Shown here in pieces: positions 86-23,782 of a stretch of 35,937 nucleotides of DNA. Position numbers and translations under genes: made by a program. This stretch comes from Planctomyces sp. SH-PL62 (GTDB lineage Bacteria; Planctomycetota; Planctomycetia; Planctomycetales; Planctomycetaceae), in assembly GCA_945905295.1 (NCBI GenBank), contig CAMDPX010000053.1:1-35937 (forward strand). The letters are read 5' to 3'. The notes under the pieces were generated by a model, which saw nothing but the letters and a program-made list of their open reading frames with translations, made no database searches and was not told the DNA's origin. Position 1 is the first letter of the stretch. Every line of letters begins with the position of its first letter.

Positions 86-3000
86 CTACGCGACCGTGAC
101 GGGATCACCCATCAGATTCAGCGCGTCGCCAAACGTGTTCCCGACCGAATTCAACGTGATCGGGCTCGCTCCGCCGTTGGCGATAATCGTCAGCACTCCG
201 GTGATGTGCAGCACACCGCTATCGGTAACCGCTCCGCCGGATGTGATCGACAGAGTTCCCGTCGTGGTGATCGTTCCCAGATCAACGCCCCCGGCATCTG
301 TGTCGGTAATGGCGACGTTTTTCGCGATGATGGCGAGCGCACCACCATAGGTCGAACTGCCATCATTCAACGTGATATTGGCCGTTCCGGCATTGAGCGT
401 TGTCGTGCCGGCGACAGTGAGCGTTCCGGAGTCGGTGATGTTTCCGGTCGAGGTGACCGAGAGATTGCCGGCCACCGCCGTGGCACCCAGATTAACCGCG
501 CCCGTGGCGGCGACAGTCACGTTGTTGCCAGTCAGGACCAGAGCCCCGGTGAAGGCATTCGTGCTCGTCCCCAGCGTGATGTTGTTCGCACCGGCATTGA
601 TGGTCGTTGTCCCGATGACCGCCAGTTTGCCGGTGTTGGTCACCGCGCCAGTTGGGGTCACGGTCAACGTGCCGCTGAGCGTCGAAGCACCGAGCACGGT
701 CGGAAGCGTATTGAAGATCGAAGCGTTGGATCCGGTGACGCCGATCGCGCCGGTGTAGGCGGAGGCCACCTGATCCAGCGTGATGGCCGCGGCGGTCGCA
801 TTGAATGTGGTCGCGCCTGTGACGGTGATCGCACCGCTGTCGGTGATCGCCCCGGTCGAGGTAACAGCCAACGTGCCGGTCGCGGTCGTCGCGCCGACAT
901 TCACCGCACCGGTCGCGGCGACTGCCACATTGCGGCCGGACAGGATCAACGCGCCGGTGAAGGCGTTCGTCGTTGTGCTCAGTGAGAGGTCACTCGCGCC
1001 GGTCGCAATCGTCGTTGTGCCGCCGATGGTCAGCTTGCCGGTGTTCGTCAACGCGCCGGTGGCGGTCACACTCACGTTGCCGGTTACCGTCGAGACTCCC
1101 AATACGGTCGCTCGCGGATTGAGCAAACTCGCGGACGAACCGGCCAGGCTGACCGCTCCGGTATATGCCGAACTCGGAGCGTTGAGCGTGATGGTGCTCG
1201 CCCCCGCGTTAAACGACGCGGTGCCTGGCACAATGATGTCGCCCACGTCGGTGATCGCACCCGTCGACGTCAGCGAGAAGTTGCCGGTCATGACGGAGGC
1301 CGCCACCTCGGCGGCTCCGGCCACCACGACCGTGACGTTCTTGCCAGCCAGATACAGCGATCCGCCAACCGTACTCGCGGCGTTGGTCAGCGAGACGTTG
1401 CCGGTCGTGCCGATCTGCAAGTTCTGACCGATCGTCAGCACGCTGGTGCTCGTGACCGTGCCGGTGTTGAAGACGTAGAAGTCTTGCGCGATGTTCGATG
1501 TTCCCAACGTGACCGCACCGGTTGCGGTGACGTGTTCGATCCGCGCCGTCATCGAGATCGCGCCACCGAACGTATTCGTGGGCGTATCGAGGTTCACATC
1601 GTGAGTCGCCCCGACATTGATGTTCGTCGCTCCGGTGATGGTCAGCTTGCCGGTATTGGTGACGTTGCCCGATGTCGAAGTGACTCCCAAGGCCCCCGAC
1701 AACGTGCAGGCACCGAGCACCGTGGCGGTGGTATTCAAGACCGATCCGTTGGCTCCGGTGAGGCTGATCGCGCCGGTGTAGGCGGAGGCCGCCTGATCCA
1801 GCGTGATCGAAGCGCTGCCGGCGTTCAACGTGGTTGTGCCGGTGACGGTCTGTGTCCCGCTGTCGGTGATGGCACCAGTCGACGTGACGGCCAGATTGCC
1901 GGTCGCGGTGGTGGCTCCCAGATTCACAGCGCCCGTGGCACCCACCGTGACGTTGGTTCCCGTGAGGATCACCGCGCCGGTGAAGGTATTGGTCGCGGTT
2001 CCCAGTGTGATGCTGTTCGATCCGGCATTGATCGTTGTTGTGCCGGTGATGGCTAACTTGCCGGTATTCGTCACCGCGCCCCCGGGTGCCACCGTGAGAG
2101 TGCCGGTCAATGTGGAAGCGGCCAACGCCGTCGCCAGTGTGTTGGTGATCAACGCATTCGAGCCGGTCACACCGATCGCGCCGGTGAAGGCTGAGCCCGC
2201 TTGATCGAGCGTGATGGCCGTCGTGCCGGCATTCAGCGTGGTCGTGCCGCCGACGGTTAAGTTGCCGCTGTCGGTGATGGCACCGGTTGACGTCACGGCC
2301 AGATTGCCGGTCGCCGTCGTGGCACCCAGATTCACCGCGCCGACGGCTCCTGCCGTGACGTTGTTGCCCGTGAGGATCAACGCGCCGGTGAAGACGTTTG
2401 TCGCTGTTCCCAGGGTGATGTTGCTGGCCCCCGCGTTGATCGTGGTGGTGCCGCCGACCGACAGTTTGCCGGTGTTGGTCACCGCGCCAGTCGGCGTGAC
2501 GTTCAATGTGCCCGACAATGTTGAAGCTCCCAAGACGGTCGCGCGGGAATTGATGATCGAGGCGTTCGAGCCGACGACGCCAATCGCTCCCGTGAAGGCC
2601 GAGCCCGCTTGATCCAACGTGATCGCCGTGCTGCCGGCGTTCAGCGTTGTCGTGCCTGTCACCGTCAACGTTCCGCTGTCGGTGATCGCCCCTGTCGCGG
2701 TCACGGCGAAGTTCCCCGTCGCCGTCGTTGCGCCCAGATCGACGGCACCGGTCGCCGCCACGGTCACGTTCTTGCCGGTCAGAATCAACGCGCCCGTCAA
2801 CGTATTCGTCGATGTTCCCAGCGTGATGTCGTTCGTTCCCGCGCTGATCGTCGTGGTTCCCGTCACCGTCAACTTGCCCGTGTTCGTCACCGCGCCAGTG
2901 GGTGTCAGAAGCAAGTTGCCGCCGACAGTCGTGACGCCGAGTTCTGTCGCAGCATTCGAGGTGACTGTGAGATTTTTCGTGGCCGCCGTCGTCCCAGAAA

Positions 3001-3412
3001 TCGATTCGGCTGCTGTCAGTCCAATCGTTAGGTCACCGGTCGTTCCCGTGACTTTCAGCGAATCGACGCCGAGTCCTCCGTTGAAATTGACAGTCACCAG
3101 ATTACCGCTGTTCGCCGCATCAATGGTGGCGTACAGCCTGCCCGCCAGTTTGACGGTGGTGTTACTAACTCCGGCGGTGACCTCCACATTGTCCGCCGAT
3201 GACGTCCCCGTGAGGGAAAGAACGCCGCTGGAAAATGCCACGCCAAGCGCGGGGAGACAACGTTCTTCGAGATACTCGGCGACTGCCGGACTGGATTGAC
3301 CATACAGATCGCGAGCGGCAAGTCGGCGTTTGCTCTGTTTCCGCAAAGAGGCGGTTCTCAAGTTGGACCACAGGTTCTTGAAGTAACCACTCTGGCGGAA
3401 CAAGTTCAGCAT
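86..3412 (-). CDS. Giant repeat-rich beta-helix-like surface protein
   Basis: Predicted extracellular or cell-surface protein of about 1108 residues; function unknown. The ATG at 3412 is preferred over a TTG at 3460 because GGGAG lies 8 bases upstream. The N-terminus is basic (residues 1-35) and carries LEERCLPA at about 48-55, like the LEPR-XLL/LEDR-type motif of planctomycete surface proteins. A Thr/Gly/Ala/Asn-rich body follows, made of alternating half-repeats of about 68 residues. One type carries 'TNTGKL..GTTTINAG', the other 'ITDSG.LTV.GTTTLNAG'. Six NTGKL copies are spaced 408 bp apart, except one spacing of 612 bp. The composition resembles filamentous-haemagglutinin or autotransporter-adhesin beta-helices. 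No enzymatic domain, autotransporter barrel or LPXTG-type anchor is visible; the protein ends shortly after the last repeat. Antisense frames stay open because of the repeated sequence and are not genes. Confidence 0.8.
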   Translation of the reverse strand: MLNLFRQSGYFKNLWSNLRTASLRKQSKRRLAARDLYGQSSPAVAEYLEERCLPALGVAFSSGVLSLTGTSSADNVEVTAGVSNTTVKLAGRLYATIDAANSGNLVTVNFNGGLGVDSLKVTGTTGDLTIGLTAAESISGTTAATKNLTVTSNAATELGVTTVGGNLLLTPTGAVTNTGKLTVTGTTTISAGTNDITLGTSTNTLTGALILTGKNVTVAATGAVDLGATTATGNFAVTATGAITDSGTLTVTGTTTLNAGSTAITLDQAGSAFTGAIGVVGSNASIINSRATVLGASTLSGTLNVTPTGAVTNTGKLSVGGTTTINAGASNITLGTATNVFTGALILTGNNVTAGAVGAVNLGATTATGNLAVTSTGAITDSGNLTVGGTTTLNAGTTAITLDQAGSAFTGAIGVTGSNALITNTLATALAASTLTGTLTVAPGGAVTNTGKLAITGTTTINAGSNSITLGTATNTFTGAVILTGTNVTVGATGAVNLGATTATGNLAVTSTGAITDSGTQTVTGTTTLNAGSASITLDQAASAYTGAISLTGANGSVLNTTATVLGACTLSGALGVTSTSGNVTNTGKLTITGATNINVGATHDVNLDTPTNTFGGAISMTARIEHVTATGAVTLGTSNIAQDFYVFNTGTVTSTSVLTIGQNLQIGTTGNVSLTNAASTVGGSLYLAGKNVTVVVAGAAEVAASVMTGNFSLTSTGAITDVGDIIVPGTASFNAGASTITLNAPSSAYTGAVSLAGSSASLLNPRATVLGVSTVTGNVSVTATGALTNTGKLTIGGTTTIATGASDLSLSTTTNAFTGALILSGRNVAVAATGAVNVGATTATGTLAVTSTGAITDSGAITVTGATTFNATAAAITLDQVASAYTGAIGVTGSNASIFNTLPTVLGASTLSGTLTVTPTGAVTNTGKLAVIGTTTINAGANNITLGTSTNAFTGALVLTGNNVTVAATGAVNLGATAVAGNLSVTSTGNITDSGTLTVAGTTTLNAGTANITLNDGSSTYGGALAIIAKNVAITDTDAGGVDLGTITTTGTLSITSGGAVTDSGVLHITGVLTIIANGGASPITLNSVGNTFGDALNLMGDPVTVA

Positions 3413-3633
3413 GTTCGAGACTCCCGCAACGTGACGATCCGGAAAACGTCGATGGCCCAATGAGCCAACGATGCGGAGTCAGGAATCGAAGCGGAGAGTT
3501 CGGACTTGTGTCTTTCGCGAGACCAGTCGTGAGAATCTCCTTGAAGGAGTCTCAAGAGCGCAACTGGCGCGAGAATGCGTGCTGGTCAAAGCTTGGCGAG
3601 AGGCGATGGTCGGTGGGAGCCGACCCTACGCGG

Positions 3634-3930
3634 CTACAGGCGCAAGAATGCCTGCAAGTCGGAAAGGATTGCGTTGGCAGTCGCTTCCGCCGCATCGCGT
3701 GTGAGCAGTTCGCCACGGTTCAGTCGTTGGCGAACTTCTTCCAGAACATCCGCGCGGACTTCTGGGAGTTCTTGGATCTTCGCCATCAGTTCAGAAGTCT
3801 CGCGAGATGCGGAGGCCGATGATGAGGAAGAGGTGGATCCGGTTCGTCGCGGGCCGCTCGCGGCGGAACCTGGGCGAGTCGGTCGGCGACCGAAGAGCGG
3901 TGATCCCATCGAGTCGCCATCAATTCGCAT
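3634..3930 (-). CDS. flgM: FlgM-like anti-sigma-28 factor
   Basis: Small protein of 98 residues, likely the anti-sigma factor that binds FliA (sigma-28) until the hook is complete. The N-terminal half is disordered and Ser/Gly/Arg-rich, starting MRIDG. The C-terminal half (about 47-98) matches the FlgM pattern: a helix with 'LPEVRADVLEEVRQRL' followed by 'GELLTRDAAEATANAIL'. This parallels the usual 'R..KV..I...I..G.Y..d...iA..ll'. AGGA lies 7 bases before the ATG at 3930. It diverges from the TPR gene at 4059 and sits upstream of the surface-protein gene on the same strand. FlgM is a divergent family, so the call rests on pattern, length and the flagellar context. No FliA gene is in the window. 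Confidence 0.7.
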   Translation of the reverse strand: MRIDGDSMGSPLFGRRPTRPGSAASGPRRTGSTSSSSSASASRETSELMAKIQELPEVRADVLEEVRQRLNRGELLTRDAAEATANAILSDLQAFLRL

Positions 3931-4058
3931 ACGAAGTTCCTCACCTCAAGAACGTTGACGTTGTCAAACGGAATTCTTCACAACGACTGTTCAAACGAGT
4001 TGATTTGTCCCAAAGGCGGGGCATAGTTGCCCGACACCGAATACGGGTCAAGGTCAAC

Positions 4059-5999
4059 ATGTCCGCGCATTCTCACTCACCATCGACTTCAAAATCTGCA
4101 CCGCCCACGGTCTCTTCGCAGGGTGAAGTTCCTTCGATTCCCGCGTCTTCAATGCCCGACAGCGATGTTCCGCAGCGGAAGTTTCCGCTGTTTGTGATCG
4201 CGTTGGCCATCTCTGCCACATTGCCGATCGGACTTGGGATCGGCTGGACATGCCGAGCCAAGTCGGCCAAGCCTGTGACAACCTTCACGCACGACGACAC
4301 CTCACCCAACGAAGAGACCGATTCGCTCAGTTGGGCTTGGCGAAATCTGCGAAACACGGACGATCTGTTTCGAGCGGGAGACTTTGGACTTGCGCTACAA
4401 CACTACCAATCGAAGGAATGCGCGGATCCCTTGCGACCATCCGCCGAACTTCGTTTGAAAATCGCCTTATGCCACGAAGCACTCGGCCAGTGGGACGAGG
4501 CGGTCTCGATTCTCGATTCCATTTTGGAAGACGCCGAGTCGGAACTTCGCGATGCGGCTTTGTTGGCACACAGCCGAATCGGGCTCTGCCGGCAGGATTT
4601 CGAGCACACCCGCGCGACTCTCAGACGACTTCTCGGCCCGTTGGACGAACTGCGGCCAGTCGCTCGGACGATTGCGGAAGACGCTTGTTATCTCTTGGCC
4701 AGCGCGTGTTTGTTGGAGGAGGACTCCGCGCAGGAGGAACCCTCGCACCTGAATCGGCCAATTTCGCCACTGCACCGATCCGCGATGCAGTGGATCAACA
4801 CGTCGCTCTTGGATCAGTCGATCCCCGCGCAAACAAACGAGCTGGCCGGTTCCGGCGAACCCAATCCGACACAACCAGACGCAGCGCCGTTTGACGATGA
4901 AACTTGCACGATGGCGACTCGCCTCTTCGCTGCGACTTCCTCCGCGGAACGCCGGCAGCTTGGTGAGCAGCTTGCTCGACAGTTGCTTGCTAACCATTCA
5001 AAGGCTCGGTGGGTCGGACATCTCAAGATGGTGCTTGGAGAAGTGGCCTACCGGCAGGGTGATCTGATTCAGGCCAAGGAGCTCTTCGGTGAAGTGGCTG
5101 ATCGATCGTTGAGCGCGCTGGCTGCGATCGCGTCGTACAACCAAGGGGTCGTGCAATTCCAGTTGCGAGAGTATCGCCCTGCCAGCCGCACTCTCGGCCG
5201 CTTCGTCGATGGAGCGCCGGGGCACGAATTATGTCCGCTCGCTTTGCTCTTACGTGGCCGCTCACTTCTGGAATTCGGAGATGGCGAGATGGCGGCCTTC
5301 GATCTGAAGCGGGCGGTCGATTCACCGGGACGCGACGAATTGCGAGCTTGGGCGGCCGTGTATATGGGGCTGGCACATCTGCAAAGTGGCAAGCCGATGC
5401 TGGCGGCTCAGTCGATGTTTCATCGTCGCGATCGTCTGCAATCAGACGTTGCGCGAGCGGAGTTGGCGTTCGTCGTTTCGCTGGCTCGATTGGAATCCTT
5501 GAAGCCGTCGGATTCACGCGATCGAGAAGTGATCTTCATGCTCCGCGCGTTGGCGTCGATCAACGCCGACTCGGAATGGTTAGGTGCTTGCGGGCGACAG
5601 ATGCTCGGCCGAGCGTATCAGCACTTGGGGCTGATCGAACAAGCGATGGCAGTCTATGAGCATGCGTTGCGGCAGGATCTCCAAGAGCCGTTCGCCTCCG
5701 ACATCAAACTTGCGCTGGCTGATTCCGCGTTGGCAACGGGGAATTCGGCGTTGGCACGGCATCATCTTGCGGACCTTCAAGCGAGCCAGCGAGCACCGTG
5801 GGCCACACAAGCTGGGCTGCGGATCGCGAAATGGGAATTGGATCAAGGCGATCACGAAAAATGCCTGACCATCTGCCGCGAGCTGTTGCCCACCACGTCC
5901 GATCGTGCGCCGATCTTCCGCCTGATGGGACGAGCCCACGAGTCAACCGGCCATTTCGATCTGGCCGCCGAGTGCTATGCGGGACTCGCCAAGCACTAG
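4059..5999 (+). CDS. Membrane-anchored TPR-repeat protein
   Basis: Protein of about 646 residues. I start it at the ATG at 4059; the longer open frame from 3807 would run antisense through flgM and encodes low-quality Arg-rich sequence. The N-terminus is Ser/Pro-rich (1-40) and cytoplasmic, then comes one membrane segment (about 42-62, FPLFVIALAISATLPIGLGI). The rest is a long helical region with TPR signatures such as 'DDLFRAGDFGLALQHYQ', 'ALGQWDEAVSILDSIL', 'AYRQGDLIQAKELF' and 'GHFDLAAECYAGL'. TPR arrays mediate protein-protein contacts; the partner is unknown. The position between flgM and the HDOD-kinase suggests a link to envelope or flagellar function, by inference only. The ribosome-binding site is weak (AGG). 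Confidence 0.75.
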   Translation: MSAHSHSPSTSKSAPPTVSSQGEVPSIPASSMPDSDVPQRKFPLFVIALAISATLPIGLGIGWTCRAKSAKPVTTFTHDDTSPNEETDSLSWAWRNLRNTDDLFRAGDFGLALQHYQSKECADPLRPSAELRLKIALCHEALGQWDEAVSILDSILEDAESELRDAALLAHSRIGLCRQDFEHTRATLRRLLGPLDELRPVARTIAEDACYLLASACLLEEDSAQEEPSHLNRPISPLHRSAMQWINTSLLDQSIPAQTNELAGSGEPNPTQPDAAPFDDETCTMATRLFAATSSAERRQLGEQLARQLLANHSKARWVGHLKMVLGEVAYRQGDLIQAKELFGEVADRSLSALAAIASYNQGVVQFQLREYRPASRTLGRFVDGAPGHELCPLALLLRGRSLLEFGDGEMAAFDLKRAVDSPGRDELRAWAAVYMGLAHLQSGKPMLAAQSMFHRRDRLQSDVARAELAFVVSLARLESLKPSDSRDREVIFMLRALASINADSEWLGACGRQMLGRAYQHLGLIEQAMAVYEHALRQDLQEPFASDIKLALADSALATGNSALARHHLADLQASQRAPWATQAGLRIAKWELDQGDHEKCLTICRELLPTTSDRAPIFRLMGRAHESTGHFDLAAECYAGLAKH

Positions 6000-6251
6000 C
6001 CTGATTCGTGTGCCATCACGACCGTCCCGTTCGGTTTGATCCGCAGGACCGTTGTTGTTTCACAGGCTGTGTGAATCTCGCGATTGGCGAGGCATTTCCG
6101 ATCAAGTTGAGTCGAACGGTCTCGATTCCTTGAGTGGGCCGCGTGCGATGCTGCCGTGGTTGGTGGGCTTTTCGGCTTGCCCTTCAACCGTTGGCATTTC
6201 CTGCGGTCGCCTCTCACCACACCATGATTCACATCATTTTGAGACTTCAAC

Positions 6252-6908
6252 ATGTTCAACGCTCTGGCGAGCTGCATCGACGGTCATTCGAGTGATCCCG
6301 ATGACCTTTTCTCGGAATCGAATCGACTTCAACACCTCCATGATTCCATCGAAGCAGACACTCCTGAATCCGCCGTGTTCGATGACTTGGCCATCGGCTT
6401 GATGGCGATCGAGGGCCGGAACTACAGCACTGCGGTGACATCACTGACGCGAGTCACTGATGCCGATCCGACGCAGTTCGCGCTGGCTCAAGAATGGCTG
6501 GGGACCGCGTATCTCAAATCTGGACAACCCGAATTGGCCATCGACCCGTTACGTCGGGCGATTCAACTCAACGAACAACTCGGCCGCGAACCGCTCGCCA
6601 TTGCCGAGTGTCATTTCTCGCTCGGCCTGGCATTCCTGCACTCAGGCCGTGGCGAATGCGCCTTGAGCGAATTCCAAGCGGCTCTGCATTGCGAGCCAGA
6701 CTGGGGAACCGTGCTGATGGAAATCGCACGCGTGCATGCGCTCCGCAACCGCATTCTCGAATCCGCCGCCGCGCTGGACGAAGCAGGTCAGCAGGACGAA
6801 GCCTTTCTGAGTCAGGCAAATGACGACTGCGATTTTGAGACTGTCGTGGTCAGTCTGGCATGTCGATCCCGACAAGGGACACCTCATTTGTGTCCTGATT
6901 TTGAATAA
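6252..6908 (+). CDS. Small TPR-repeat protein
   Basis: Soluble protein of 218 residues without signal peptide or membrane segment. Residues about 45-165 hold three TPR-like units: 'GLMAIEGRNYSTAVTSLTRV', 'AQEWLGTAYLKSGQPELAIDPLRRAI' and 'FSLGLAFLHSGRGECALSEFQAAL'. The rest is not recognisable. It follows the larger TPR protein by about 250 bases and precedes the HDOD-kinase on the same strand, so the three may be co-expressed. Function unknown; probably an adaptor or scaffold. Confidence 0.7.
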   Translation: MFNALASCIDGHSSDPDDLFSESNRLQHLHDSIEADTPESAVFDDLAIGLMAIEGRNYSTAVTSLTRVTDADPTQFALAQEWLGTAYLKSGQPELAIDPLRRAIQLNEQLGREPLAIAECHFSLGLAFLHSGRGECALSEFQAALHCEPDWGTVLMEIARVHALRNRILESAAALDEAGQQDEAFLSQANDDCDFETVVVSLACRSRQGTPHLCPDFE

Positions 6909-6963
6909 GCCCAGTGGACCGTTTTCAATTGCTTCTTCGCAGACATGAATTCGGAGAATGCGG

Positions 6964-8847
6964 ATGTCTGTCAATTGGGCTGAATTGGTCAGTGATTTGT
7001 TGAAGTCTCGCCCGCAGATCGAGTTGCCACGGCGACTGAAACTTCCGGTACTTCCCCAGTCCGTCGTCGAGTTCACCGCGATTGCCGAGAAGCCCGAAGC
7101 GCGGTCGCAAGAACTGGCGGCTCCCATCGAAGCCGATTCCGCGTTGACGTCGGAATTGTTGCGGCAGGTCAACTCGGTAGGCGTCGGCTTGAGGCAACGA
7201 GTTGTCTCCGTGACTCAAGCCATCAATCTCTTTGGGCCGCGCCGGACCAAAACGTTGGTGTTGTGTTGCGCGTTGCAAACGGCCACATCGAATATCAAAC
7301 CGCAACTGCTCAATGTCGTCCAATTTCAAAAAGAGAACCGCATTCGTGCGATCTTCGCACGCGAGACAGCTCGCGAAATTGGCTGCGACATAGAACTGTC
7401 CTATACCGCAGGGTTGCTTCAAGACTTTCTACTACCGCTTCTCGTCGATGCGTTCTACGACGACTACCTGCGATTTTTTCAGGAAGAACGAGCACTCGTC
7501 GAACAAGAGCGGGAAAAGTTCGGCTGGAATCACGCGCAGATCGCGGCTGGATTGATGTTTGATTGGGGATTCCCCGATGAGCTCGTCGCTGCCGTCTGTC
7601 TGCATCACGATGTGGAACGGCTGAAATCGAATGCGGAACTTCAAGAATCTTCCGTGAGCGCCGCCATCGCGGCCGCTTCGCTGCCCGAAAGTTTGTGTCA
7701 ATCGCCGCAAGGATTTGACACGCTGTTGCTGCTCCAGGATGTGCTTTCCGATTTTCGGTTTCTGGAAGTTGCCAACGTCGTTGACGAGGAGTTCGCTGGG
7801 GACAACCTGCATCCGGCACAGAACGTGGGCTTGTGCGAGCGGCTCGGCAACTTGGCCATCGACAATCTGGAACAACGAAAACTGAATCGAGTCCATCATC
7901 ACCGACAGCTTGGTAACTACACGCTGGAAGACCAAATCGGCCAGGGCGGCATGGGGGTGGTCTATCGGGCGCGGCACTGCATGTTAAAACGGCCGGCGGC
8001 GATCAAGCTGTTGCACTCGATGAAACTCGGTTCCGAATCCTTGTCGCGTTTCGAAACGGAAGTGCAATTGACTTGTCAGCTCACCAGTCCACACACCATC
8101 GCCGTGTACGACTACGGCGTGACGACGGAGGGGCTGTTTTATTACGCGATGGAGTACTTGGATGGCATCACTCTGGCGCAGTTGGTGGCGAATTATGGTC
8201 CGCAGCCCGCCGGTCGCGTGATTCATTTGCTGCAACAGGTCTGCTTCTCGCTGGCGGAAGCCCATGCCGCCGGTTTGATCCACCGGGATTTGAAACCAGA
8301 GAACCTGATGCTCTGCTGCCGAGGCGGGATTCCCGACATGGTCAAGGTTCTGGACTTCGGCTTGGCGAGAGTTGTCTCAGCACACCCGGAACGGGATCAG
8401 GTTCCGCAGACACTCTGCGGCACGCCGCTGTATATGCCGCCCGAAGCGATCACCGCGCCTCAAACGATCGATGCCCGCAGCGACCTGTATTCGCTGGGAG
8501 CCGTCGCCTATTTCCTGCTGACAGGTACGCCGGTCTTTCCCGGCGAGACAGTCAATGGCGTCCTAGGCCAACATCTCCGAGCAGCACCTCAACGACCGTC
8601 AGAACGATTGGGCATCCCTGTGGATTCCGACTTGGAGTCTCTCATCTTGCAGTGCTTAGCCAAAAGCCCATTGGATCGTCCAAGCGATGCTCAGCGATTC
8701 AGCCTGATGTTGAATGAGTGTCGCGCCAAGTCGACATGGCAGTCCGAAGATGCGTCGCTTTGGTGGTCTCGGCGTCTCGACTTTATGCAGGCGAACTTGC
8801 CAATCCTTCCGAGCACAATTGAGCCAACGAGAATTATTAGTGCGTAA
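6964..8847 (+). CDS. HDOD domain-Ser/Thr protein kinase fusion
   Basis: Predicted cytoplasmic signalling protein of 627 residues. The ATG at 6964 is chosen over 6958 because GGAG at 6953-6956 is 7 bases before it and only 1 base from the other. Residues about 20-220 form an HDOD output domain (LPVLPQSVVEF near the start, later FGWNHAQIAAGLMFDWGFP and VCLHHDV). Residues about 318-590 form a Hanks-type kinase: glycine loop GQGGMGVV (326-333), catalytic lysine in AAIK (348), HRDLKPEN with Asp442, DFG at 464-466 and CGTPLYMPPEA. All catalytic residues are present, so the kinase should be active. There is no membrane segment after it, unlike PknB-type kinases. HDOD domains often act in chemotaxis or c-di-GMP-related signalling. 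The gene is followed by a CheA-like kinase. Confidence 0.88.
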   Translation: MSVNWAELVSDLLKSRPQIELPRRLKLPVLPQSVVEFTAIAEKPEARSQELAAPIEADSALTSELLRQVNSVGVGLRQRVVSVTQAINLFGPRRTKTLVLCCALQTATSNIKPQLLNVVQFQKENRIRAIFARETAREIGCDIELSYTAGLLQDFLLPLLVDAFYDDYLRFFQEERALVEQEREKFGWNHAQIAAGLMFDWGFPDELVAAVCLHHDVERLKSNAELQESSVSAAIAAASLPESLCQSPQGFDTLLLLQDVLSDFRFLEVANVVDEEFAGDNLHPAQNVGLCERLGNLAIDNLEQRKLNRVHHHRQLGNYTLEDQIGQGGMGVVYRARHCMLKRPAAIKLLHSMKLGSESLSRFETEVQLTCQLTSPHTIAVYDYGVTTEGLFYYAMEYLDGITLAQLVANYGPQPAGRVIHLLQQVCFSLAEAHAAGLIHRDLKPENLMLCCRGGIPDMVKVLDFGLARVVSAHPERDQVPQTLCGTPLYMPPEAITAPQTIDARSDLYSLGAVAYFLLTGTPVFPGETVNGVLGQHLRAAPQRPSERLGIPVDSDLESLILQCLAKSPLDRPSDAQRFSLMLNECRAKSTWQSEDASLWWSRRLDFMQANLPILPSTIEPTRIISA

Positions 8848-8887
8848 CAGAACTCGGTTGTCCCCGGCGTCTCATGGGATTAGGGGG

Positions 8888-8914
8888 GAATCGTCGTGTG
8901 AGTTTCACCGATAG
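8888..8914 (+). promoter_or_regulatory. Weak sigma-28-like -10 element before the CheA-like gene
   Basis: ACCGATAG at 8907-8914 matches six of eight positions of the sigma-28 -10 consensus GCCGATAA. Fifteen bases upstream is GAAT, a poor match to TAAA. It lies 18 bases before the ATG at 8933. Low confidence; it is offered only because a FlgM-like gene and another candidate of this type occur in the window. Confidence 0.2.
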
Positions 8915-8932
8915 TCATCCGGAACACGTCTT

Positions 8933-10225
8933 ATGGACCGCAAGTGCAAGTTGATTCAGGAACTCGGCCTCCTGCGAAAGTTCGCAGCGGAGATGGACGA
9001 GGATCTTGGCCACTTTGAGAGTGACGCTGATGCTTTAAGTACCGCATCGATTCATGATGGTATCACCTCGAAGTTCAAGGAGTTCGTCGCGCGATCGTTG
9101 CGAACGGTTCACACGATCAAAGGGACGGCCGCAGTACTCAAGCTGAAGGAGCTAACGAGTTCGGCGCGCACGCTGGAGGATCTGTTAGTTCTCATTCGTG
9201 ATGGTTTCCGCTGCTGGGATACGTCAATGGCTCATCGGCTTTGCGAGATGTCAAAAGCGTTGCGACAGATGGTTTCTCAAATCGCGGAGACCGCGAGTGG
9301 ATCGGTCGCAAAGACGCCTCGGCACACAACCCACATGCTGCGTTACGATCACAACCGACGAGCGTCGTCTGCTCCGAGGGTTGCGGCCAATGGCACCGGC
9401 AATCCTCTCGCGAGGCCATTGCCGGAGAAGGCAGCGCCGATTCCGCAATCAACAACATTCGCCAAAATCGCATCCGATGTTGATGAGCGTCTGTTTGAAA
9501 AGCTGGTTCAATTGATCGGCCAGATTTCGGTCGTTCAGCAACAGATTGAGGAATGTTGCTCCCCTCGCGAGGACGCGAAGCGGAATCTGGCGTTTCGATG
9601 GCTCAATCTCATCGGGCCAGAGATGCGAGACACTTTGGCCAAGTTGCCTTGCGAGCCGATCGGCGACACTTGGAACGGCTGGCCCCGTCTGCTGTCGGAA
9701 ATGGCGGCGAACTGCGGCAAGCAGGCGCAGATTAAAATTGAAGGGGCGGAAGTGCGCCTCGACAAGCAGAGTATCCGAACGATTCAGAACGCGCTGACAC
9801 ATCTCCTGCACAACGCGGTCGACCACGGCATTGAGCGGCCCGATGTTCGTGAGGCGATGGGCAAGCCACCGGTCGCCACCATTGTGCTCTCGGCATCGCA
9901 GATGCGAGATCAAATTCAAATCCTCGTGAAGGATGACGGACAGGGCGTTGATGTTGAACGTGTCAAACAACAAGCCCTTCGCATGAAGTTGGTGACGCCC
10001 ACTCAAGCCGCTCGTATGACGGGGCCGGAGCTCACGCAGTTCATTCTTCGACCGGGGCTCTCGACGGCGTCGCAAGTCACGAACAACTCCGGCCGAGGCA
10101 TCGGCATGGACGCTGTTGTCGCGAACGTCGAGAAGCTTGGCGGCACGCTGGAGATCCACAGCATTCACGGCCAAGGGACCACCATTAAGATCAAATTCCC
10201 GCTGGGCCAGCCGAAGAGCGTTTGA
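8933..10225 (+). CDS. CheA-like histidine kinase lacking a CheW-like domain
   Basis: Protein of 430 residues related to chemotaxis kinase CheA. An Hpt (P1) domain occupies about 10-120, with phospho-acceptor His60 in 'VHTIKGTAAVL'. A low-complexity linker (about 125-170) is followed by a possible dimerisation helix region (about 180-250). A CheA-type ATPase domain ends the protein: N box HLLHNAVDHGIE (about 290-301), G1 DDGQG (334-338), G2 GRGIGMDAV (387-395) and GQGTT (413-417). The protein stops at 430, so the P5 CheW-like domain that docks CheA to receptors is missing; a P2 domain is also not evident. Typical CheA is 600-700 residues. It may be a dedicated kinase in a non-receptor pathway. 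No CheY, CheW or receptor gene is in the window. Confidence 0.85.
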   Translation: MDRKCKLIQELGLLRKFAAEMDEDLGHFESDADALSTASIHDGITSKFKEFVARSLRTVHTIKGTAAVLKLKELTSSARTLEDLLVLIRDGFRCWDTSMAHRLCEMSKALRQMVSQIAETASGSVAKTPRHTTHMLRYDHNRRASSAPRVAANGTGNPLARPLPEKAAPIPQSTTFAKIASDVDERLFEKLVQLIGQISVVQQQIEECCSPREDAKRNLAFRWLNLIGPEMRDTLAKLPCEPIGDTWNGWPRLLSEMAANCGKQAQIKIEGAEVRLDKQSIRTIQNALTHLLHNAVDHGIERPDVREAMGKPPVATIVLSASQMRDQIQILVKDDGQGVDVERVKQQALRMKLVTPTQAARMTGPELTQFILRPGLSTASQVTNNSGRGIGMDAVVANVEKLGGTLEIHSIHGQGTTIKIKFPLGQPKSV

Positions 10226-10257: not shown

Positions 10258-10303
10258 AGTCGCGGGAGCGACTCGCCTACGTCGCTCAGTCGCTCCCGCG
10301 ACT
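10258..10303. repeat. 16-bp palindrome between convergent genes
   Basis: AGTCGCGGGAGCGACT (10258-10273) is the exact reverse complement of 10288-10303, with a 14-nt loop. It sits in the 101-base gap between the convergent ends of the CheA-like gene and motE, so it could act as a bidirectional terminator; GATTTTGTT follows on the plus side. Its form also fits a dispersed intergenic repeat. Confidence 0.65.
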
Positions 10304-10326: not shown

Positions 10327-11247
10327 TTATGGTTGCTTGAGCAGTTCGATGAGCGCCGCGGCCTTCGCGGGATCGGATGCGGCAATGGTGGCGAGCACTT
10401 TCGCGGCCTGCCGGTCCTTCATGTTCTTTAGGATCTCGACGATGGCCGCATCGCGGTCTTGCTTCGCGAGTTGTTGCAGGACCTCGGCCACAACCTCGGC
10501 CGGCATGCTGTCGAAGATCGTTCCCAATCGTTTGAGCGCCGCTGGATCACTGGTGACACTCACCGATGGAACGGCCGGTGTTGCTTCCTTGGTCGGAGCC
10601 GTGACCTCGGTTTTGGGTGGCGGCGCTTCCAGCGCATCGAGTTTCTGACGCAACAATTCACTCTCGTCAGGAGTGGCGCTGTCGGCTGGCTCGCGATGCT
10701 GATTGAGTTCCTCCAGCTCCTGACGTAATCGATCTCGTTCGGTTGGATTCGCCTTGGCGGCTTTGTCGCGAAGTTGGTTGATCTCTGCGTGTTCCTTTTT
10801 CAGCCAGTCACGCTCCTCTTGAGTCACCTTGTTGGCTTTCTCGCGAAGCTGATTGATCGCCACCTGCTCCGCGCGAATGTCCGCGAAGATCAGCTTCAGG
10901 ACTTCCTGGCGTTCGTCGAGCCGAAGTTCCTTCTCGTAAGTGGTTCGCAACCGTTGATTCAGTGCCACGACCAGCGGGCTGGTTTCGTCCATGCCTTCGA
11001 CATACGGCGGTCGAACAGCGATGGGTGCTTCCGGCTCCTCGTTCGGTGGCTCCTCTTGAGCGGTTTGATTTTGAGCGCGCTTTTCCAACGCCGCCAATGG
11101 GGTCTCGGCCGCTTTCGCTTCGGCGGCTTCCGCGCGCTGAAGCGCCGCTTTCAATTCCGACTGCTGCTTCTTCCAAAACAGAGTCCCCCCCGTGGCGGCT
11201 CCGCCAAAGATCATCATGACCAGCAGAAGTTGAAACATCGTTTTCAT
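10327..11247 (-). CDS. motE: MotE-like flagellar protein (membrane-anchored coiled coil with MgtE-N-like C-terminus)
   Basis: Protein of 306 residues with an N-terminal membrane segment (about 4-24, MFQLLLVMMIFGGAATGGTLF). Charged coiled-coil sequence occupies about 27-60 and 100-205. The C-terminal helical domain (about 233-304) contains 'LGTIFDSMPAEVVAEVLQQL', 'AAIVEILKNMKDRQAAKVL' and 'DPAKAAALIELL', the pattern of the MgtE N-terminal/FliG middle-domain fold found in MotE. In rhizobia MotE is a periplasmic chaperone for MotC; homologues occur beside fliJ in many bacteria. It follows fliJ by 22 bases. Residues 131-205 are three tandem 25-residue coiled-coil repeats. Its function here is inferred from architecture and position. 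Confidence 0.72.
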   Translation of the reverse strand: MKTMFQLLLVMMIFGGAATGGTLFWKKQQSELKAALQRAEAAEAKAAETPLAALEKRAQNQTAQEEPPNEEPEAPIAVRPPYVEGMDETSPLVVALNQRLRTTYEKELRLDERQEVLKLIFADIRAEQVAINQLREKANKVTQEERDWLKKEHAEINQLRDKAAKANPTERDRLRQELEELNQHREPADSATPDESELLRQKLDALEAPPPKTEVTAPTKEATPAVPSVSVTSDPAALKRLGTIFDSMPAEVVAEVLQQLAKQDRDAAIVEILKNMKDRQAAKVLATIAASDPAKAAALIELLKQP

Positions 11248-11728: not shown

Positions 11729-11739
11729 GGTTCACAACT

Positions 11740-11833
11740 AACCTGAAGCGTCAGTGAGGGCGAACGCTTCACCAAACTTCGATTTCAGAATGAAAGTCGA
11801 TCGAAACGTCCGCCCTCGCTGACGCTTCGGGTT
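11740..11833. repeat. Planctomycete-type inverted repeat, copy 1 (fliI-fliJ gap)
   Basis: A 23-nt arm at 11740-11762 (AACCTGAAGCGTCAGTGAGG...) pairs with 11811-11833 with two mismatches. Both mismatches are T for C, so they could remain G-U pairs on one RNA strand. The loop is 48 nt. Nearly the same arms recur at 13189-13282 and 23694-23782. All three copies sit between adjacent co-directional flagellar genes. Confidence 0.85.
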
Positions 11834-11837
11834 AGTT

Positions 11838-13154: not shown

Positions 13155-13188
13155 AAAAGCTTTGTCCGATCAGAAAGAACAACACACT

Positions 13189-13282
13189 AACCCGAAGCGT
13201 CAGCGAGGGCGGACGCGCCAACCGACTTTGTTCGTGGAACCAAATCTGTGTGAAGCGTTCGCCCTCGCTGATGCTTCGGGTT
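13189..13282. repeat. Planctomycete-type inverted repeat, copy 2 (fliH-fliI gap)
   Basis: Arms 13189-13211 (AACCCGAAGCGTCAGCGAGG...) and 13260-13282 are reverse complements apart from one base. The loop of 48 nt has the same length as in copy 1 although its sequence differs. It fills most of the gap between fliH and fliI. Confidence 0.87.
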
Positions 13283-13285
13283 GGT

Positions 13286-13915
13286 TTAAGAAACGAGCTG
13301 CTGACGTAACTCTTCAATCTGTCGGCGCAGTTCGTAAACGATCGACATTTCGCCCGATGCCGCCTTGCAGTCGCCGCGAGCCAATGAGGCGTCGGCTTGA
13401 ACGCAGACGTGATCGCCCAGGGTCGTCGCCGAGATGTGCGATTCGACATGCTGCTGCCAGACGGACAGATCGGCCGGATGCAGTTTCACGACGATCGGCT
13501 GATCGGTGCTCAATCGCTCGACGACTTCGCGCACGAGGTTCTCGATGGGGAACTGATCGCTGTGGACTCGATCCAACACGAGTTTCGCGGCGATCGCGTG
13601 AGCCAGTTCGATCGTGGTCTGCTGGAGCTCGGGCATCAGGATTTGCTGCCAATGCACCTGCATCGTCTTCGCGGCATGCTGCAACTGAGCGGCCGCTTCT
13701 TCGAGCGCCGTGACTTGATTGCGGAGACTGGCCTCGAGTTCCGCGCTGACGGCAGAAGCTGCCGTTTGGCTCGACTTCGATCCACTCGCCTCGGCCAGCG
13801 CGAAGTGAGCGACCCGGTGATGGTGCGCCTGCAACCATTCCGGCGCCGGCTTCATCGGGTCTCCGAGCACAACACGCCGAATCGGTAGTTTCAGCGCGAT
13901 TGTCTTTACGGTCAT
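13286..13915 (-). CDS. fliH: Flagellar assembly protein FliH
   Basis: FliH binds FliI and regulates its ATPase during flagellar export. I start the gene at the ATG at 13915 (209 residues, MTVKTIALK...); the open frame reaches further upstream but that sequence does not look like FliH. The central region is helical (about 60-110, 'EASLRNQVTALEEAAAQLQ'). The C-terminal part has the FliH/YscL features 'ELAHAIAAKLVLDRV', 'LVREVVERL', 'VVKLHPADL' and 'ASLARGDCKAASG', the last matching the typical 'd..l..GGc.vet..G' region with the second glycine lost. It is followed by fliI and diverges from fliK. Confidence 0.87.
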   Translation of the reverse strand: MTVKTIALKLPIRRVVLGDPMKPAPEWLQAHHHRVAHFALAEASGSKSSQTAASAVSAELEASLRNQVTALEEAAAQLQHAAKTMQVHWQQILMPELQQTTIELAHAIAAKLVLDRVHSDQFPIENLVREVVERLSTDQPIVVKLHPADLSVWQQHVESHISATTLGDHVCVQADASLARGDCKAASGEMSIVYELRRQIEELRQQLVS

Positions 13916-23676: not shown

Positions 23677-23693
23677 CGCGTCTCAACCAAACT

Positions 23694-23782
23694 AACTCGA
23701 AGCGTCAGCGAGGGCGAACGCTTCAAGCGACGATGATGGTGGAACTCCTGTGAAGCGTTCGCCCTCGCTGACGCGGCGGGTG
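23694..23782. repeat. Planctomycete-type inverted repeat, copy 3 (flgK-flgL gap)
   Basis: The arms at 23694-23716 (AACTCGAAGCGTCAGCGAGG...) and 23760-23782 correspond to copies 1 and 2, with slightly more mismatches at the outer end of the right arm (GCGGCGGGT instead of GCTTCGGGTT). GAACGCTTCA and TGAAGCGTTC extend the pairing inward. It lies between co-directional flgK and flgL. Confidence 0.83.

Follow-up and report, generated by a model that had tools for sequence, protein, structure and literature searches.

The window, by which we mean the whole stretch of 35,937 nucleotides analysed, is one entire contig (G000:C53) of the Planctomyces sp. SH-PL62 assembly, which comprises 8.6 Mb in 476 contigs with an estimated completeness of 97%. 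A small TPR gene, an HDOD-Ser/Thr kinase gene and a CheA-like gene (Table 1) are read in one direction, towards a convergent operon that has FliJ, FliI and FliH among its genes. Past this operon lie FliK, a diguanylate cyclase (GGDEF), FlgD, FlgE, FliF, FliG and flagellin, followed by FlgK, FlgN, FlgJ, FlgI, FlgH, FlgA, FlgG and FlgF. An earlier note on this DNA, made from the sequence alone, had named two TPR proteins, FlgM and a diguanylate cyclase as neighbours of the two kinases; the TPR and GGDEF proteins are indeed present, whereas FlgM has no match among the window ORFs tested (small ORFs in part). The product of the convergent gene is MotE-like by position only, its Pfam match being weak, and the inverted repeat that separates this gene from the CheA-like gene is possibly a terminator or a repeat element. 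A dispersed palindromic repeat of about 100 bases also occurs between the flagellar genes (11735-11837, 13183-13286 and 23690-23781), and several copies of it lie between che genes of a related genome, G150 (L109). Adjoining the locus on the minus strand (86-3460) is a gene for a 1124-residue protein with 13 DUF5649 repeats, whose place in G150 (L097) is also taken by a large repetitive protein.

Table 1. Features at the proposed former chemotaxis site and around the two kinase genes (window positions).
Feature	Coordinates	Strand	Evidence
Large TPR protein, bordering the lost che cluster on the left	3807..5999	+	TPR families
Putative leader remnant of the former che operon	6030..6179	+	Alignment to the G150 sequence immediately before cheA
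Interval expected to hold the deletion junction (site emptied of the che cluster)	6180..6224	.	
Small TPR protein; che-cluster gene in relatives	6252..6908	+	TPR families; 61% identical in G083
HDOD and Hanks-type Ser/Thr kinase, catalytic residues intact	6958..8847	+	Pfam HDOD, Pkinase
CheA-like histidine kinase: P1, P3-like helices, P4; without P5/CheW	8933..10225	+	Hpt, HATPase_c, AlphaFold, Foldseek
Perfect 16-nt inverted repeat, lying between the CheA-like gene and the flagellar operon convergent with it	10258..10303	.	
Convergent flagellar-operon gene; coiled-coil protein; right flank of the insertion	10327..11247	-	G150 order

The HDOD-kinase has 629 residues, with Pfam matches to HDOD at 29-218 (E 2.6e-37) and to Pkinase at 321-577 (E 8.3e-43). 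It contains the motifs GQGGMGVVY, AAIK, HRDLKPEN and DFG, so that the glycine loop, catalytic Lys, HRD and DFG of a Hanks-type kinase are all encoded within 6958-8847. Full-length relatives with 38-80% identity are found in about 20 genomes listed by the family and genus searches, while a scan of the named genomes with an alignment of the protein gives mostly kinase-only matches. One myxobacterial match (L194) has the reverse order, with an HDOD-like part following the kinase, as judged by eye and not by family search.

The CheA-like protein is 430 residues long. Pfam places an Hpt domain at 13-119 (E 1.8e-8), which carries His60 and represents P1, and a HATPase_c domain at 283-425, which represents P4 and has its N box (LLHNAVDHG) at 291, G1 box (DDGQGVD) at 334 and G2 box (SGRGIGMD) at 386. 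No P2 is detectable. In the P3 region homologous sequence aligns, but there is no Pfam H-kinase_dim match, although Pfam does recognise the dimerisation domain in the CheA of G083. AlphaFold predicts helices at the P3 position (185-208 and 215-236, pLDDT about 65-74) after a disordered linker at 138-183, with the P1 helices and P4 mostly near or above a pLDDT of 90. The best Foldseek match is the P3P4 fragment of Thermotoga maritima CheA (4xiv, E 3.7e-18). The earlier note's description of both proteins, namely a kinase with all Hanks catalytic residues beside a CheA with His60 and the N, G1 and G2 boxes that stops short of CheW, is thus borne out, with starts placed here at 6958 and 8933.

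P5 is regarded as a core, defining domain of CheA. In the window protein the ORF ends at residue 430, after P4 and with nothing past it, and Pfam finds no CheW domain in 8933-10225. A CheW-like domain beyond a sequencing frameshift at the CheA stop, which the earlier note had named as a possible refutation, is not found: only about 100 bases separate the stop at 10225 from the end of the convergent gene at 10327, and a tblastn search of every window frame with the P5 domains and CheW of G083 gives nothing credible (best E 0.19). Nor does the window hold the CheW, receptor and CheY genes that cluster with CheA in the flagellar class. Without P5 and CheW the protein should have no place in the usual array, as had been proposed; judged by its sequence, it cannot use the standard P5-CheW-receptor coupling.

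In G083 (C389), the gene order is CheA (with two CheW domains), CheW, MCP, CheY, HDOD, CheB, CheR, CheB, CheX, CheY, CheX, TPR and HDOD-kinase. In G150, the closest relative among the genomes compared, the same region lies on two contigs: the first carries the large TPR gene followed by CheA, with the contig break inside CheA, and the second carries MCP, CheY, HDOD, CheB, CheR, CheX, CheY, CheX, TPR and HDOD-kinase, then the convergent gene, FliJ and FliI. The G150 relative of the large TPR gene (47% identical) is directly upstream of the canonical cheA (L097 10635-12641), and that of the convergent gene (56% identical) directly follows the HDOD-kinase; both outer flanks of the G150 che cluster are therefore the flanks seen in the window, whose FliI is 92% identical to that of G150. 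The small TPR gene precedes the HDOD-kinase in G083, G150 and the window alike, and the HDOD-kinase orthologues at the 3′ end of the cluster are 79% (G150) and 73% (G083) identical to the window protein. Hence the HDOD-kinase belongs to a chemotaxis cluster in this genus, whereas its relatives examined in other genera have neither che nor flagellar genes nearby. G150 has no CheA-like gene between its HDOD-kinase and convergent gene, and the window is about 1.4 kb longer there.

The window keeps the outer genes, but everything from CheA to the last CheX is gone from the site, which is reduced to the interval between the end of the large TPR gene (5999) and the start of the small one (6252). The left part of this interval, 6030-6179, aligns with the G150 cheA leader with a score of 33, whereas 1000 mononucleotide shuffles reach at most 20; the match is not significant under a stricter local-alignment scoring scheme and is relied on only together with gene order. 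The right part, 6225-6266, matches the DNA just before the TPR gene in G150 at 83%. With pre-cheA DNA on the left and pre-TPR DNA on the right, the che genes therefore left a tight junction.

The cluster is also missing from the rest of the assembly. Canonical CheA, CheX and the cluster HDOD protein are absent from it, save for the match of the latter to the window's own HDOD-kinase, and the cluster CheA, CheW, CheY, CheR and CheB find their best matches in other systems, with 24-42% identity. The three chemosensory clusters that remain (C18, C45 and C158) are of a different type, and che genes are also present on C443 and C379. The assembly is likewise without FliM, FliN, FlgC and the usual FlhA-FlhB-FliP-FliR genes of relatives (compare G083:C420, L143); diverged export-type genes on C11 and an FlhA-FlhF-FlhG-like set on C218 are the only such genes found. 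Given the 476 contigs and the absence of this second flagellar cluster, the missing che genes could partly reflect an assembly gap. Separately, a short CheA fragment with an in-frame TGA lies on C384 (L071 3053-3283, minus strand), flanked by genes resembling those for purine nucleoside phosphorylase and ileS. Its likeness to the CheA of G103:C85, with 84% identity across 58 residues, suggests that this genome has lost one more chemosensory system.

Over P3-P4, the CheA-like protein is 42-48% identical to CheAs of the lost cluster's type, while the cluster CheAs of G083 and G150 share about 78-80% identity between themselves. A tree built from 51 CheA P3-P4 sequences groups the protein with CheAs of that type (20-row clade, 100/99); its end branch, at 3.68 changes per site, is about 30 times as long as the median (0.12). 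By an AU test, neither joining it to the two genus CheAs in one clade (p 0.07) nor setting it just outside the group (p 0.41) is rejected, and our claim is limited accordingly to 'nearest to the lost cluster's CheA type'. No orthologue was found among the genomes searched from the genus (12), family (150) and phylum (392), nearly all relatives found there being much longer open frames; these searches scored the best candidates per genome and could miss a distant P5-less CheA. A direct scan of the named genomes yields no close relatives either, and the arrangement is known from one genome only. Of the pair, whose lack of conservation the earlier note had named as a refutation, the HDOD-kinase is thus kept with its TPR gene in G083 and G150, but its CheA-like partner is not.

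The CheA-like protein has changed at 67 of the 142 columns that are otherwise invariant in its CheA type, including the Arg of the HLxRN motif, the RMQPI motif of P3 and neighbours of the ATP site; its kinase activity is for this reason not assured. Nevertheless, the frame is open over 430 codons, of which 127 are one step from a stop, and comparison with the G083 CheA gives a dN of 0.49 and a dS of 1.52, the latter near saturation. GC3 is 0.664, as in the neighbouring genes. The reading frame, codon use, dN below dS and kept catalytic motifs argue that the gene is still constrained, as do the confident AlphaFold models of P1 and P4.

We consider it about an even bet (probability roughly 0.5) that the locus is a collapsed flagellar-type chemotaxis operon, whose CheA, truncated and moved, was kept as an array-free histidine kinase. 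The che cluster would once have lain between the large TPR gene and the FliJ/FliI operon and have lost its CheA-to-CheX stretch, while the CheA-like gene would derive from the same CheA type, having been cut short ahead of P5 and relocated inside the locus. Its product would be a dimeric kinase in which P4 phosphorylates His60 of P1, which may in turn feed putative receivers made elsewhere in the cell. Cytoplasmic partners would control this kinase in place of receptors, most likely the co-oriented HDOD-kinase with the TPR protein; these two are the obvious choice, given their common strand, their gene order and their former membership of the che cluster. A more specific version, in which the loss of P5 and of the cluster freed the CheA from the array and placed it as a free histidine kinase under the control of the HDOD-Ser/Thr kinase, is speculative and rather unlikely; if true, a joint His/Ser-Thr signalling pathway would have been made from a dismantled chemotaxis operon.

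Slow decay of the CheA-like gene, as opposed to a new use, is the main rival to the collapsed-operon reading. On that account, to which we assign a real but clearly smaller chance, the gene is a functionless, truncated copy that has been drifting since the che cluster was lost, and the HDOD-kinase is kept for reasons of its own. The roughly 30-fold long branch, the change of nearly half of the otherwise invariant columns, some of them in P3 and next to the ATP site, the dimerisation domain that Pfam misses here but not in the G083 CheA, and the CheA already reduced to a fragment on C384 all agree with it; a frame open throughout, dN well below dS, kept catalytic motifs and a codon-position GC like that of the neighbours do not. 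It is unlikely that the cluster moved to unassembled DNA and that the P5-less CheA is a diverged paralogue operating alongside, for instance by donating additional phosphate or by competing for dimerisation. The missing FliM/FliN/FlgC and FlhA-FlhB-FliP-FliR genes, in a genome whose FliI is 92% identical to that of G150, do hint at unassembled motility DNA, yet completeness is 97%, every cluster gene is absent, the ancestral site is empty, and the accelerated branch fits a loss of constraint.

The earlier note had suggested an unusual phospho-signalling pathway for flagellar assembly or the swarmer/stalk switch. The position in a flagellar locus, the same-strand spacing and the GGDEF gene further on are compatible with such a pathway, dedicated and conserved, but it lacks comparative support, as the CheA-like gene has no orthologue among the genus, family and phylum genomes searched and flagellar genes do not adjoin the HDOD-kinase in those other genera that were examined; we hold it to be very improbable. 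Least credible of all is that a chimera or binning error joined unrelated pieces: the assembly is fragmented and of metagenome type, but the locus is collinear with G150 on either side and uniform in composition.

Ser/Thr kinases also accompany other che clusters of this genus. Pkinase-REC-REC genes stand directly upstream of CheA in G103, G083 and G144 (L087 7118-9064, L088 1522-3351 and L089 203-2113) and are a possible direct link between Ser/Thr kinases and the phosphorelay, and in G083 a second HDOD-Pkinase gene follows another che cluster. This recurrence supports a part for Ser/Thr kinases in chemosensory signalling in this genus. A link between Ser/Thr kinases and chemosensory genes is real in this genus, but the pair seen here, whose link the earlier note had called an inference, is not conserved. 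Ser/Thr kinases in or beside several che clusters point to Ser/Thr input into planctomycete chemosensory signalling, of which we found no description in a limited search of the literature; nor did that search turn up directly relevant work on HDOD in Planctomycetes or on orphan CheA. A natural P5-less CheA, with its ancestral operon and the empty site both visible, also raises the question of whether a CheA core can live outside receptor arrays.

Published work bears on how unusual such a protein is. The role of P5 in array placement is established, and in a survey of 13,673 CheA proteins a CheW-like P5 was present in 100% (PMC10782961). The survey, however, takes HATPase_c plus CheW as the mark of a CheA (PMC10782961), so a P5-less CheA would probably escape it, and such forms may be under-recorded rather than absent. 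Compared with flagellar-type CheAs (G083:C389, G150:C383 and G130:C15), the window protein shares the P1 His, a predicted helix pair at the P3 position and the P4 boxes, but it is without P5/CheW (of which G083 has two), sits on a very long branch, and has no CheW, receptor or CheY genes with it. The split CheA3 and CheA4 of Cereibacter sphaeroides likewise depart from the canonical CheA domain set, but they keep a CheW domain and stay in the receptor array (PMC10782961), unlike the protein described here. The Pkinase-REC-REC genes offer a parallel within the genus, a Ser/Thr kinase adjoining CheA; they carry receivers instead of HDOD, however, and their neighbouring CheAs are long, that of G103 having a CheW domain. 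Finally, the HDOD-Ser/Thr kinase family of this planctomycete family has the same domain order and intact catalytic residues as the window protein, but its members in the other genera examined are not found beside che or flagellar genes, unlike the one described here.
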